A stretch of DNA of 64,000 bases from Alphaproteobacteria bacterium (GTDB taxonomy: Bacteria; Pseudomonadota; Alphaproteobacteria; UBA8366), in the NCBI GenBank assembly GCA_028281325.1, contig JANQKC010000026.1:62001-126000 (forward strand), in the 5' to 3' direction. Positions 5,064-29,118 of this stretch are shown piece by piece. The translations under genes and the position numbers were made by a program. Below the pieces are notes generated by a model that was not told the origin of the DNA, did no database searches, and worked only from the letters and a program-made list of their open reading frames with translations. Position 1 is the first letter of the stretch. Each line of letters begins with the position of its first letter.

Positions 5064-7058
5064 TCACTTTTTCTTTTCTGCTGCAACAAGAAGATCGGCA
5101 GGTCCGCGGCGCTGCCACAGATAGACGGCGGCGAGGCCGCAGATGCCGACGATGTTCACGAGCCGGCCGTCGAGCGACGCCACGAAGGGCTGACCCGCCG
5201 GCCAGAAACAAAACAGACTGACAAGGCCCAGCGCCACCCAGTCGGAAAACCGCGTTTCGCGGTGCAGGAAGCCGACGGTCCACGCCGAGAAAGCAATCGT
5301 CCCCACGGCGGCCGTCGCCATCGTCCACAATCCCGCCTGGACACTGCCGGTCATCAGGATCGGCGTGAAGGCGAACAGCAAGGGCACGACGTAGAGCATC
5401 TTGGCGAAACGAAAACTCGCCCAGGCCGTCTGCCATGGATCGGCCTTGGCGATCGACGCCGCGACGAACGCGCCGAGACAGACCGGCGGCGTAATGTTGG
5501 AATCCTGACTCAGCCAGAACACGATCATATGGGCCGCGATCAGCGCGACGCCGAGTTCCTGCAACGCCGGCCCGGCGATCACCACCAGCACCAGATATGA
5601 AGCGGTGATCGGCAACGCCATGCCCAACACCAGCGAGGCGAGCGCCACGAGCAGGACGGCGATCAGCAGGCTGCCGTCCGACAACTGCACCATCAATAAG
5701 CTCATCTTCAAGCCGACGCCGGTCATCGCCATCATACCGACGATGAGGCCGATGCCCGCCGCGGCCGCGCCGATGCCGAGCGCGTTGGTCGTCCCCTCGA
5801 CCAGCGTTTCCGCCAACGTGCGCGGCCCCATGATCTCGTCCGGCCGCGCGGCCCAGCCGAACCGCGCGCAGGCGATTCGAATCCAGTTGATCAGCACCGT
5901 GCTGGCGATCGCCATGACGGCGCACCAGTCCGGCGAATAACCGGCGATAAGAAAGGCGAGCAAGACGGCAAAGGGGACGATGTGGTACCAGCCGCGCCGC
6001 AGCACGTCCATCGCCGGCGAGGTCTCCCCCTCGGCCACGCCGCTGATCCCGAACTTGCGCGCCTCGAAATGCACGATCAGCCAAATCGATCCCAGATACA
6101 GCAGCGCCGGGACCGCCGCGACGGCGATGATCTCGACATAGGGAATGCCGGTAATCTCGGCCATGATGAACACGCCGGAGCCCATGACCGGCGGCAGGAG
6201 CTGCCCGCCGAGCGATGCCGAGTTCTCAACGGCGCCCGCGACATGCGGCCGGAACCCGACCCGCTTCATCAGCGGGATCGTCAGATTCCCCGTCGACACC
6301 ACATTGGCCAGACTGCTGCCGGAGATCGACCCGAAGACCGCCGATGCGGCGACCGACACCTTCGCCGGACCGCCGGGCGACCGGCCGGCCAGCGCCATCG
6401 GCAGGTCGATGAAGAACTTGCCCATGCCCGACCGCTGCATGAACGCGCCGAAGAAGATGAAGATCAGCACGTAGTTCGCCATGACGCTGGTCATGACGCC
6501 AAAGACGCCCTCTTGCGAATAGAAGCTGTAGTTGACGATCTGGGCGAGGTCCGCGCCCCGGTGAGCAACGGAGTCGGGGAAGATCCAACCGAAATAGGCA
6601 TAGAAGAGCGCGAACAGCGCGATCCCCGGAATCCACGGTCCGATCCCGCGCCGCGCCGCCTCCAGCGCGAGCAACACGGCGCAGCCCGACATGAGCGTAT
6701 CGGTCACCGTCCACGCGCCCGCCCGCTCGACCAGCGGAAGATATTGGATGATGTAATAGCCGAGGCACAGAATGGCCGCCGCGATCAGCACCAGGTCCAA
6801 CACACGCCGGGTCCGTTTCAAGACCGGCGACCGGCCCGTGAAGACGGCGAAGGCCAGCACCCACATCACCAAGGTGAAAACGCCGAGGTGAATCTGGTCT
6901 TCCGCAATACCCGGCCCGGCGGACCAGATCACGAAGACGCCGAAACATACCGCGACGATCCGATAGAGGCTCCCCCACAACCCATCGGGCAGGGCATCGG
7001 GGATGCCGATCGATGAGGGCGGTTTTCCCGCCGCTATGTCGTCCTGCGACCGCATCAT
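5064..7058 (-). CDS. TRAP transporter fused permease, second copy
   Basis: This 664-residue membrane protein is a second DctQ-DctM fusion, shorter than the 807-residue one at 125-2548. The signature region SISGSSLANVVSTGNLTI lies at about 245-262 and GGQLLPPVMGSG follows. The C-terminal half repeats the fold (LGMALPITASYLVL). It is downstream of the TAXI binding protein at 7123-8121 with a gap of 64 bases, and 9 bases before the amidohydrolase, so the three are likely one operon. An ATG at 7055 would also serve as start. Ligand unknown, probably a carboxylate related to the amidohydrolase substrate. Confidence 0.9.
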   Translation of the reverse strand: MMRSQDDIAAGKPPSSIGIPDALPDGLWGSLYRIVAVCFGVFVIWSAGPGIAEDQIHLGVFTLVMWVLAFAVFTGRSPVLKRTRRVLDLVLIAAAILCLGYYIIQYLPLVERAGAWTVTDTLMSGCAVLLALEAARRGIGPWIPGIALFALFYAYFGWIFPDSVAHRGADLAQIVNYSFYSQEGVFGVMTSVMANYVLIFIFFGAFMQRSGMGKFFIDLPMALAGRSPGGPAKVSVAASAVFGSISGSSLANVVSTGNLTIPLMKRVGFRPHVAGAVENSASLGGQLLPPVMGSGVFIMAEITGIPYVEIIAVAAVPALLYLGSIWLIVHFEARKFGISGVAEGETSPAMDVLRRGWYHIVPFAVLLAFLIAGYSPDWCAVMAIASTVLINWIRIACARFGWAARPDEIMGPRTLAETLVEGTTNALGIGAAAAGIGLIVGMMAMTGVGLKMSLLMVQLSDGSLLIAVLLVALASLVLGMALPITASYLVLVVIAGPALQELGVALIAAHMIVFWLSQDSNITPPVCLGAFVAASIAKADPWQTAWASFRFAKMLYVVPLLFAFTPILMTGSVQAGLWTMATAAVGTIAFSAWTVGFLHRETRFSDWVALGLVSLFCFWPAGQPFVASLDGRLVNIVGICGLAAVYLWQRRGPADLLVAAEKKK

Positions 7059-15464: not shown

Positions 15465-16064
15465 TTAAGACTTACTGCCGTCGAGGGTGGAGAGCGCTTC
15501 GATCACCGCGTCGGGATCGGGCCGCTGCGTAAAATGCGCTTCCGCATAGACGCCGCGCACGACGCCGGCTGCATCGAGCACGACGATTGTCGGATATGCG
15601 ATGCCGTACCCGAAAGCGCCGGGAGCGTGTTCGTTGTTGAATACGTTGAAGGCCCGGATAGCCTCCGACTTCGGATCGGACAACATCGTGAACCCGATCT
15701 TCCGCCGCTTTGCGAAGCGGTCCAGCGTCTCGACCGGGTCGTAACTGACGGTGGCGACGGTATAGCCGAGGTCGGTGATCTCTTTCAAACGCTTGTTCCA
15801 GGCGACCGCCTGGATCTTGCAGAAGGGTCACCAGTCGAAGGATCGCGTAAACAGGATGATCAGTCCGCGATCACCGGTCAGGTTTTCCCGGCTGCGCGGA
15901 TCGCCGTTTTGATCCTGTACCGTCAATGCATGCGGGCTGGGCGCGCCAACCGCCGGACCACGCTCCGCCGCCGCGGCAGGCAAGGTCAGCCCGATAGCCA
16001 CCAGCAGGGCTGCGAAAGCCGGCGCCATTCCGGCGAATACACTCTTATTCAGCCATGGAATCAC
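15465..16064 (-). CDS. Secreted redoxin (peroxiredoxin/thioredoxin-like) selenoprotein, TGA read as Sec79
   Basis: The frame gives 199 residues if the single in-frame TGA at 15828-15830 is decoded as selenocysteine. It starts at GTG 16064 (GAGG nine bases upstream). It has a signal peptide (hydrophobic core about 13-30, cleavage near AAAA-ERG) and the mature AhpC/TSA-type fold: GAPSPHALTVQDQNG, LIILFTRSFDW, then U79-P-F-C82, and YPTIVVLDAAGVV. The TGA falls exactly at the N-terminal cysteine of the CxxC centre, and both sides of it continue the same family without any frame shift. A SECIS-like hairpin lies just downstream (15797-15814). The alternative is a nonsense mutation of a Cys codon; the hairpin and intact downstream coding argue against it. 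It lies upstream of no gene on its strand and converges on the PyrE-like gene. Confidence 0.85.
15797..15814 (-). promoter_or_regulatory. Predicted bacterial SECIS hairpin
   Basis: In the mRNA sense the 14 bases after UGA are followed by the stem UCCAGGC, loop GGUC and GCCUGGA, seven perfect base pairs closing a tetraloop. The apical loop begins 21 bases after the UGA. In Escherichia coli fdhF the SECIS element also presents a GGUC apical loop, at about 19 bases after UGA, and the loop G and U contact SelB (established knowledge). The stem lies inside codons for IQAVAW, as bacterial SECIS elements do. Confidence 0.75.
15828..15830 (-). other. In-frame UGA selenocysteine codon
   Basis: On the minus strand this TGA separates the codons for FTRSFDW from those for PFCKIQAVAW. 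It stands where homologous redoxins carry the first Cys of WCPxC. No other in-frame stop occurs between GTG 16064 and the final TAG/TAA-class stop at 15465. Confidence 0.8.
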
Positions 16065-16166
16065 GATAGACGTCCTCGATCCGACTCAACCAATCACCGT
16101 CCAATCTATGATCCTTTAGAAATGAATCAATAGGATAATACGACCCGAACACGATCTCGTTACCGT

Positions 16167-17810
16167 CTATGAACCGAGCGCTTTGGGCCCTTGGACGAAG
16201 CGCCACTCATGCGCCAGGCCCAGATAGATGCCGGCGCACATGACCAACAGGACCAGTGTGAAAGGCAGCCCTACCGTAATGGCCGCAGCCTGAAGGGCGC
16301 CCAGCGCATCACCGCCGCCGCCGAACAGCAGAGCGCCCGCGATGACCCCCTCCATGGTCGCCCAAAAAATCCTTTGCGGTACGGGTGCGTCGAGTTTGCC
16401 GCCCGACGTGATGCTATCGACCACCAGCGATCCGGAATCGGACGAGGTGACGAAAAACACCAGCACCAGCACGATGGCGATGAACGAGGAGATGCTTGCC
16501 ACGGGCAGGTTTTGCAGCATCTGGAACATGGCGAGCGACACCTCGCTGATGCCATCGGCCAACGCACCGATCTCGTTCTGCGCCTGGTCCAGGGCCGAGC
16601 CACCGAAGCTCGCCATCCAGACGAGCGTGACCAAGGTCGGGACGAGCAGCACGGCAATGAGGAATTCCCGAACCGTGCGGCCCTTTGAGATGCGGGCGAT
16701 AAACATGCCGACAAAGGGCGACCAGGAAATCCACCACGCCCAGTAGAACACCGTCCAGCCGTGGAAGAACTTCTCGTCCTCGCGACCGATCCAATTGCTC
16801 AAGGGGATGATGGTTTCGGCATAGGCGACTGCCGTCGTGCCCAATGTCGTAAAGATAGCGATCGTGGGTCCAGCCAGAATGACGAACAACAGAAGCAATA
16901 CGGCGAGCCCCATATTGACGTTGCTCAACACCTTCACGCCCCCGTCGAGACCGCGTACGACGGAGATGACGGCAACGAAGGTAACGCCGAAGATGATGGC
17001 GATCTGCGTCGCGATGCCGCTATCGATTCCGAAAAGAAATTTGAGGCCGCTGGCGGCCTGTTGCGCGCCGAATCCCAGGGAGGTGGCGAGCCCGAATATG
17101 GTGGCGAGCACGGCGACAATATCGATCACATGGCCGAACCAGCCCCACGATCGATCCTTTATCAGGGGAAAAAAGCCGGACCGGATGGTCAGTGGCAACC
17201 CTTTGTTATAGGTGAAGAAAGCCAGCGATAGCCCGACCACGGCATAGATCGCCCAGGGATGCAGCCCCCAATGGAACATGGTCGCGCCCATTGCCGCATC
17301 GGCGCCCTGCGGCGTGTGGGGCGGCGCGTTGAGCGGCGTGCCGTACCAGTTGGTGTAGTAGGCGGTAGGCTCGGCGACGCTCCAGAACATCAGCCCGATC
17401 CCCATCCCGGCGGCGAACAGCATGGAAAACCATGACAAGGTCGAGAATTCCGGCCTGGCGTCGACGCCGCCGAGGCGGATTTTCCCGAACGGCAGGAAGA
17501 TCAGCGCGAGACAGAAGAGGACAAAAAAATTGCCGCCGACCATGAACAGCCAGTCGAAATGGGCGATGGACCATCCCTTGGCGCCGTCGAAAACCGCCTT
17601 TGCCGACTCAGGCGCCATCAGGGTGCCGAGCACGAAAACCAGAATCATCGCGGCCGTGATCCAGAAAACCGGATGATGGAGGTCCATCCCCCAACGCCGC
17701 AGATTGTCCTGTCCAATATGATAGTCCGTTAGATACCGGTCCGGAATGGTTGCCTCCCTTCGGCCGGGGGCGTCGACCCGATTCCGCCGCCCCCTAATCA
17801 CGGTGTCCAC
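16167..17810 (-). CDS. BCCT-family betaine/carnitine/choline transporter
   Basis: The 547-residue transporter has about 12 membrane segments. The BCCT signature occurs as GMGIGLMFWSVAEPTAYY (about 135-152) and the later tryptophan-rich stretch WAWWISWSPFVGMFIARISKGRTVREF lies at about 355. Members import quaternary ammonium compounds (glycine betaine, carnitine, choline, DMSP) with Na+ or H+. The N-terminal hydrophilic lead (DRYLTDYHIGQDNLRRWGMD) is seen in alphaproteobacterial members. The start at GTG 17810 is uncertain, because no strong ribosome binding site precedes it. The substrate is not defined by neighbours. Confidence 0.9.
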   Translation of the reverse strand: MDTVIRGRRNRVDAPGRREATIPDRYLTDYHIGQDNLRRWGMDLHHPVFWITAAMILVFVLGTLMAPESAKAVFDGAKGWSIAHFDWLFMVGGNFFVLFCLALIFLPFGKIRLGGVDARPEFSTLSWFSMLFAAGMGIGLMFWSVAEPTAYYTNWYGTPLNAPPHTPQGADAAMGATMFHWGLHPWAIYAVVGLSLAFFTYNKGLPLTIRSGFFPLIKDRSWGWFGHVIDIVAVLATIFGLATSLGFGAQQAASGLKFLFGIDSGIATQIAIIFGVTFVAVISVVRGLDGGVKVLSNVNMGLAVLLLLFVILAGPTIAIFTTLGTTAVAYAETIIPLSNWIGREDEKFFHGWTVFYWAWWISWSPFVGMFIARISKGRTVREFLIAVLLVPTLVTLVWMASFGGSALDQAQNEIGALADGISEVSLAMFQMLQNLPVASISSFIAIVLVLVFFVTSSDSGSLVVDSITSGGKLDAPVPQRIFWATMEGVIAGALLFGGGGDALGALQAAAITVGLPFTLVLLVMCAGIYLGLAHEWRFVQGPKALGS

Positions 17811-28002: not shown

Positions 28003-29118
28003 TCAGGCGACGTTGCGGGTTTCGAGGCGGCTGATCAGTTTGTCCTTCCAGCGGCGCTCGCCGCCCACGGACTGCGCCAGCAACGCGGCGCGGCGGTAAT
28101 AGAGTTGCGCATCCACTTCCCAGGTGTAGCCCATGCCGCCATGGGTCTGGATGTTCTCCTTCGACGCCAGCGCATAGGCCTGGATCGCGGCGACCCGTGC
28201 GGCCGCCGCCGCCGTCGGCAGGTCGGGGGCATCGTTGGCCAGCGCCCACGCGCCATAGAGGGCGTTCGACCGCGCCAGCTCGAGCGCGACATACATGTCC
28301 GCCAGCTTGTGCTTGATCGCCTGGAACGACCCGATCGGCCGGCCGAAGGCATGGCGTGACTTGGCGTACTCGGTCGCCATGTCGAGGCAGGCCTGCGCGC
28401 CGCCGACCTGTTCGAAGGCGAACAGGATCGCGGCCCGGTCGAAGACCCGTTCCATCACGGCCCATCCGTCCCCGGCCACGCCGAGCAACGCGCCCGCCGC
28501 GCCGTCGAACCGGAACCGGGCATGGCTGCGCGACGGGTCGACCGTCTCGACCGGCGTGCGCTCGACACCATCGAGATCGGCCAGAACGAGCGATAGGTCG
28601 CGCGCGCCCTCACCCGTCCGCGCCAGCACGATTGCGAAATCCGCCACGTCGCCATCGGCCACGGGAAGCTTCTCGCCGGTCAGCACGCCGCCCTCGAACC
28701 GAACCTTCACATCCGCAGGGCCAGGCCGCTGCACGCCTTCCGCGACGGCGACGCAGCCGATTGTCTGCCCGCCCGCCAGCAGCGGCAGGTAGCGTTGCTT
28801 CTGCTCCTCCGACCCGGCGAGCAGGATGGCTTCCGCCGCCAGATAGATTGAGGAGCTGAACGGCGTCGGCGCGATCGCGAGGCCCAACTGCTCGGCGATG
28901 ACGCATAACTCCTCGTGACTCAGGCCCGCGCCGCCATAGGCTTCGGGGATGGCGGTCGCCATCCAGCCCAGTTCCGCCATGTCGGCCCACAGGCTCCGGT
29001 CGAAGGGCGCGTCGCCTTCCAGGATAGTGCGCGCCGCATCCACCGAGCCTTTTTCGTCGAGGAAGCGCCGCGCCTGATCCCGCAGCATCCGTTGTTCGTC
29101 GGAAAGATCGAAATTCAT
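28003..29118 (-). CDS. Acyl-CoA dehydrogenase, second of a tandem pair
   Basis: The 371-residue protein starts MNFDLSDEQRMLRDQARRFL, an acyl-CoA dehydrogenase N terminus. It carries the C-terminal helix motifs SRHAFGRPIGSFQAIKHKLAD (about 245-265) and IQTHGGMGYTWEVDAQLYYRR (about 320). It is more divergent than its neighbour in the central barrel. The frame is open further upstream, but that part overlaps the CoA-transferase gene. The ATG at 29118, 4 bases after the CoA-transferase stop, is chosen. Paired FadE subunits form alpha2beta2 enzymes in steroid side-chain degradation; whether these two assemble together is unproven. Confidence 0.88.
   Translation of the reverse strand: MNFDLSDEQRMLRDQARRFLDEKGSVDAARTILEGDAPFDRSLWADMAELGWMATAIPEAYGGAGLSHEELCVIAEQLGLAIAPTPFSSSIYLAAEAILLAGSEEQKQRYLPLLAGGQTIGCVAVAEGVQRPGPADVKVRFEGGVLTGEKLPVADGDVADFAIVLARTGEGARDLSLVLADLDGVERTPVETVDPSRSHARFRFDGAAGALLGVAGDGWAVMERVFDRAAILFAFEQVGGAQACLDMATEYAKSRHAFGRPIGSFQAIKHKLADMYVALELARSNALYGAWALANDAPDLPTAAAAARVAAIQAYALASKENIQTHGGMGYTWEVDAQLYYRRAALLAQSVGGERRWKDKLISRLETRNVA

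Follow-up and report, generated by a model that had tools for sequence, protein, structure and literature searches.

A redoxin gene of this alphaproteobacterial genome that looks broken by an internal stop codon is almost certainly intact, with the stop read as selenocysteine (Sec), and sequence comparison strongly supports the placement of Sec at residue 79, the first position of a CxxC motif. We consider it very probable that the product of the gene is an exported, peroxiredoxin-like selenoprotein of the AhpC/TSA group, for which SelB and a SECIS element would decode UGA as Sec79, with Sec79 and Cys82 forming a periplasmic redox pair. The Sec machinery, the fixed codon, the SECIS hairpin, selection across the stop, and the fold are the parts of this reading that the sequences support, while we infer export, substrate, electron donor, and the role of Sec as the attacking residue.

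The gene is encoded on the minus strand of the window, i.e., the whole stretch of 64,000 nucleotides that was analyzed, where positions 16064 to 15465 translate as 199 codons from a GTG start to a TAA stop, interrupted only by one TGA at codon 79 (15830–15828). The original prediction had named no strand, which is supplied here by translation; the plus strand of 15465–16064 has no meaningful reading. The GTG start is also in frame in the sister species, and a possible ribosome-binding site, GAGGA, can be read from the sequence 8 nt upstream (16073–16077, minus strand). Residues 1–33 (MIPWLNKSVFAGMAPAFAALLVAIGLTLPAAAA; 15966–16064, minus strand) form a predicted signal peptide, judged by eye from its charged N-terminal residues, the hydrophobic core, and a final A-x-A with cleavage after AAA, and several homologues have comparable leaders. 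With TGA translated as U, the context of the stop reads RSFDW-U-PFCK, so that P-F-C directly follows TGA and completes the motif U79-P-F-C82 (15819–15830, minus strand), of which columns 79 and 82 are invariant in the alignment of Sec- and Cys-containing homologues. When queried with Cys replacing Sec, the protein matches the AhpC-TSA domain PF00578 over residues 46–170 (81.7 bits, cut-off 26). Because this match spans the TGA, both halves belong to one domain, which bears out the earlier proposal that the two open segments lie in one frame and make up a single redoxin.

Among the 44 genomes of the order that we searched, 13 have a match to the redoxin, i.e., this genome, 11 with full-length copies, and one with a decayed copy. 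The 11 full-length copies of other genomes are 43%–80% identical and carry TGA at exactly codon 79, in one case (G026) together with an additional in-frame TAG. The original prediction had argued that the position of the TGA was too exact for a chance mutation, and the identical codon in these genomes confirms this. It had also suggested looking for Cys at this codon in homologues, and all 12 homologues examined outside the order indeed have it there (as CPFC, CPYC, or CRFC), in agreement with the predicted place and motif. Alternatively, the gene could be a pseudogene or artefact, with the TGA arising by nonsense mutation or sequencing error from the Cys codon of an ordinary redoxin. This is refuted because the TGA is common to 11 other genomes with full-length genes, and it also sits badly with the purifying selection on the part after the TGA (dN/dS of 0.166 in comparison with the sister species). 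Loss of the gene does happen in the lineage, as a decayed copy with several stops in one relative illustrates, yet we regard this alternative as extremely improbable. The decayed copy (L036; G014:C68:19852–20196) seems to represent loss in progress in a genome where selB and tRNA-Sec have both been retained.

The mature part before the TGA has a dN/dS of 0.149 against the sister species, i.e., the part after it is under the same purifying selection. A codon that ended translation would have freed the downstream part to drift. Termination at UGA generally competes with Sec insertion, as is well established, and one could thus imagine that the UGA mostly yields a 78-residue fragment, perhaps with a restarted C-terminal piece, and that the full-length protein is a minor or selenium-dependent product. 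We consider this very unlikely given that both halves form one domain and are both selected, and that the whole fold, with its pair of active-site residues, would be present in neither half alone; if only efficiency is meant, the idea is compatible with insertion of Sec.

In a phylogenetic tree built without distant Bcp-type sequences, the Sec homologues group together as a single clade (support 99/98). These distant sequences had been included in a first tree, where they were drawn into the Sec clade with a branch length of 3.5, and the tree was rebuilt without them. A second, separate group of Sec redoxins with a VW-U-PPC motif (L071, G003:C9:66496–66972; L072, G032:C390:2217–2687) forms its own clade and has no evident signal peptide. 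Plasmid records contain only distant redoxins, which are 25%–30% identical among the matches listed.

Absence of selB or selC from the genome had been named in advance as evidence against Sec, and all four genes of the machinery were found in the source assembly (5.1 Mb, 98.9% complete): tRNA-Sec (selC; 76.7 bits, cut-off 47), selB (451.6 bits), selA (600.6 bits), and selD (411.7 bits), with selA, selB, and selC all within ca. 5 kb. At this locus (L009; G000:C24, 9977–15155), selC does not overlap selB and is separated from it by a gene that looks by eye like a member of the enolase superfamily, with a carboxymuconolactone-decarboxylase-like gene (also named by eye) next in the row; the literature describes selC within or overlapping selB in some Alphaproteobacteria. 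The selD gene (L112; G000:C17:10982–11911, outside the window) has an in-frame TGA of its own, in the context GGG-U-GCK, and SelD is therefore likely a selenoprotein itself. Across the order, selB occurs in 12 of the 13 genomes with a redoxin match vs. 7 of the 31 that lack such a match (Fisher P = 2.5e-5, uncorrected for kinship). The one TGA-bearing genome in which no selB was found (G040) is represented by a fragmented assembly (88% complete, ca. 540 contigs).

A frame that is open across a TGA would also be expected if UGA were read as another amino acid, through an altered code or plain read-through. Against this, TGA ends an estimated 21 of the 47 likely genes of the window and is thus an ordinary stop in this genome, the homologues show Cys rather than Trp or Gly at this codon, and tRNA-Sec, SelA, SelB, SelD, and a SECIS element are all present, so that we find this explanation hardly credible. 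A scan of the window for other cases of read-through returned two candidates only, at 28005, which resembles an ordinary junction of two genes, and at 5506, which is weak.

The candidate SECIS element is a hairpin 3' of the TGA, CCAGGC-GGUC-GCCUGG or, with one more pair, UCCAGGC-GGUC-GCCUGGA (15797–15814, minus strand). Its apical loop GGUC (15804–15807, minus strand), the likely contact of SelB, lies 20 nt after the TGA and is invariant in all 11 distinct Sec sequences. Published limits for bacterial SECIS elements are an apical loop of 3–9 nt on an upper stem of 4–16 bp, a G in the first two loop positions that is usually followed by G or U, a distance of 16–37 nt from UGA to loop, and a minimum free energy of −7.5 kcal/mol or lower (PMC13188914). 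The hairpin lies within all of them with its 4-nt GGUC loop, stem of 6–7 bp, spacing of 20 nt, and folding energy of −12.8 kcal/mol. On its own it is significantly more stable than expected (z = −3.95), and the fold is weaker in longer context (z = −1.07 over the 60 nt after TGA). The RNAalifold consensus of the 11 distinct Sec sequences, this one included, is the same hairpin, and all 66 of its pairings are conserved. One stem pair shows a compensatory change from G-C to A-U (in G034), and two pairs have one-sided G-U wobble variants. The covariation statistic is weak, with the observed score reached in 54 of 500 shuffles, because the hairpin sequence hardly varies. Conservation of codons is stronger evidence for the SECIS than covariation: synonymous codons are 87.5% identical in the six codons that begin 5 codons after the TGA, the top value among 164 windows of codons (median 45%), and Cys homologues, which lack the hairpin, have no such peak at its position. 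The encoded protein differs as well, reading QAV[AV]W in all Sec homologues vs. QL in most Cys homologues. The RNA hairpin therefore appears to dictate the protein sequence at this site.

A confident AlphaFold2 model with Cys in place of Sec has a peroxiredoxin-type fold (mean pLDDT 89.1, pTM 0.87), and among solved structures it comes nearest to the peroxiredoxins Bcp4, AhpE, and PrxQ (3hjp, 1xvw, and 5ima) at a TM-score of ca. 0.8. The redoxin shares this overall fold with the Bcp/PrxQ and AhpE proteins but has a UxxC motif and lacks their conserved Pro and Arg. In the peroxiredoxin signature PxxxTxxC, the Pro position seven residues before Cys82 is taken by an invariant Ser75, and Sec occupies the position of Thr. 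The active-site Arg, found in the Bcp homologue of this genome within the segment GIERSTF, falls in a column of the redoxin alignment that is not conserved but varies (Y, H, R, V, or Q). Next to it stands Pro158 (15591–15593, minus strand), which is invariant in Sec and Cys homologues and lies where thioredoxin-like oxidoreductases have their cis-proline; we take it to be cis as in that family.

These features suggest how the protein might work. SelB carrying Sec-tRNA would bind to the GGUC hairpin of the mRNA and insert Sec at the UGA, and translation would then run through to the TAA. The predicted signal peptide would direct the protein to the periplasm, where Sec79 and Cys82 would act as a reversible selenenylsulfide/selenol-thiol pair; in the fold, both lie where the first long helix begins. 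The protein is most likely a periplasmic thiol-disulfide or peroxide reductase that would work through a Sec79-Cys82 selenenylsulfide and might be recharged by a DsbD/CcdA-type thiol carrier in the membrane; one DsbD-type membrane domain is encoded in the genome. Of its two likely groups of substrates, periplasmic disulfides or peroxides, we would favor disulfides. A different chemistry for the same selenoprotein, i.e., a true peroxidase in which Cys82 attacks the peroxide and Sec79 resolves, is possible though the less likely option. The nearest solved folds are peroxiredoxins, and alignment to the genome's Bcp homologue, which has TPGC as its motif, places Cys82 opposite the peroxidatic Cys and U79 opposite Thr. 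Such a role is argued against by the invariant Ser75 in place of the peroxiredoxin Pro and by the missing GIERSTF Arg beside the invariant Pro158.

The original prediction of a likely new selenoprotein stands regarding Sec and the novelty of the gene, but not regarding its kind, since UxxC peroxiredoxin-like proteins with a PF00578 domain are a listed selenoprotein family. A "Prx-like protein" with UxxC instead of TxxU was described among the selenoproteins of the Sargasso Sea set (PMC1088965). In the GOS set, 225 Sec members were counted for "Prx-like 1" (Table 2 in PMC2398784), and a catalogue from 2026 has the entry "Prx-like thiol:disulfide oxidoreductase, PF00578, UxxC, UxxU" (Table 1 in PMC13188914). 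This type of selenoprotein has thus been catalogued for two decades, and the redoxin adds to it a lineage-specific member that is new and apparently exported. Shared features are the PF00578 domain, UxxC (here U79-P-F-C82) in place of TxxU or TxxC, a bacterial SECIS after the UGA, and common Cys homologues, whereas the recognizable export signal and the lineage-specific QAV[AV]W apparently imposed by the SECIS set our protein apart. The likeness to this family, whose reference member is WP_010940744.1, was judged by these shared features. Sec peroxiredoxins with a TxxU motif have the same fold and domain family, but there Sec replaces the peroxidatic Cys, while the Sec of the redoxin takes the place of Thr, three residues closer to the N-terminus. 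The SelL-related model NF040769 shows weak similarity over residues 47–140 with 29.9 bits, far under its curated cut-off of 120, so that we rejected membership; SelL itself has a UxxU motif. No NCBIfam model covers the redoxin above its own cut-off. As a tentative idea that we hold to be rather unlikely, the Sec homologues could form a separate subfamily of exported peroxiredoxin-like selenoproteins that is fixed in one order, has no curated model, and in which we found no reversion from Sec to Cys.

The same gene neighbors are found only in the sister species while the surroundings vary in other genomes, and the neighborhood therefore gives no clue to function. A BCCT transporter gene that adjoins the redoxin gene (16167–17810) is missing at this site in the sister species; there, a hydroxyisobutyrate-dehydrogenase-like gene adjoins instead, pointing to insertion or loss of the BCCT gene.

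Two further redoxins encoded outside the window have an in-frame TGA. One is of Bcp/PrxQ type with Sec at the peroxidatic position (TPG-U-T; L111, G000:C16:19642–20043) and is likely a Sec peroxiredoxin. The other is a peroxiredoxin-like protein with the motif SW-U-PYC and a strong hairpin of −19.3 kcal/mol after the TGA (L110, G000:C2:32791–33312), likely the third redoxin selenoprotein of the genome. Together with SelD and the redoxin described here, the genome thus encodes at least four likely selenoproteins. A survey from 2006 knew FdhA as the only selenoprotein of Alphaproteobacteria (PMC1794560); our results mark two families of this order as users of Sec with several redox selenoproteins. 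Standard annotation would shorten the almost certainly intact redoxin gene or label it as a pseudogene, and genes of this kind are easily missed. With its near-invariant SECIS and the clean split between Sec and Cys homologues, it would make a good test case for how the SECIS functions and for why an exported redoxin keeps Sec.
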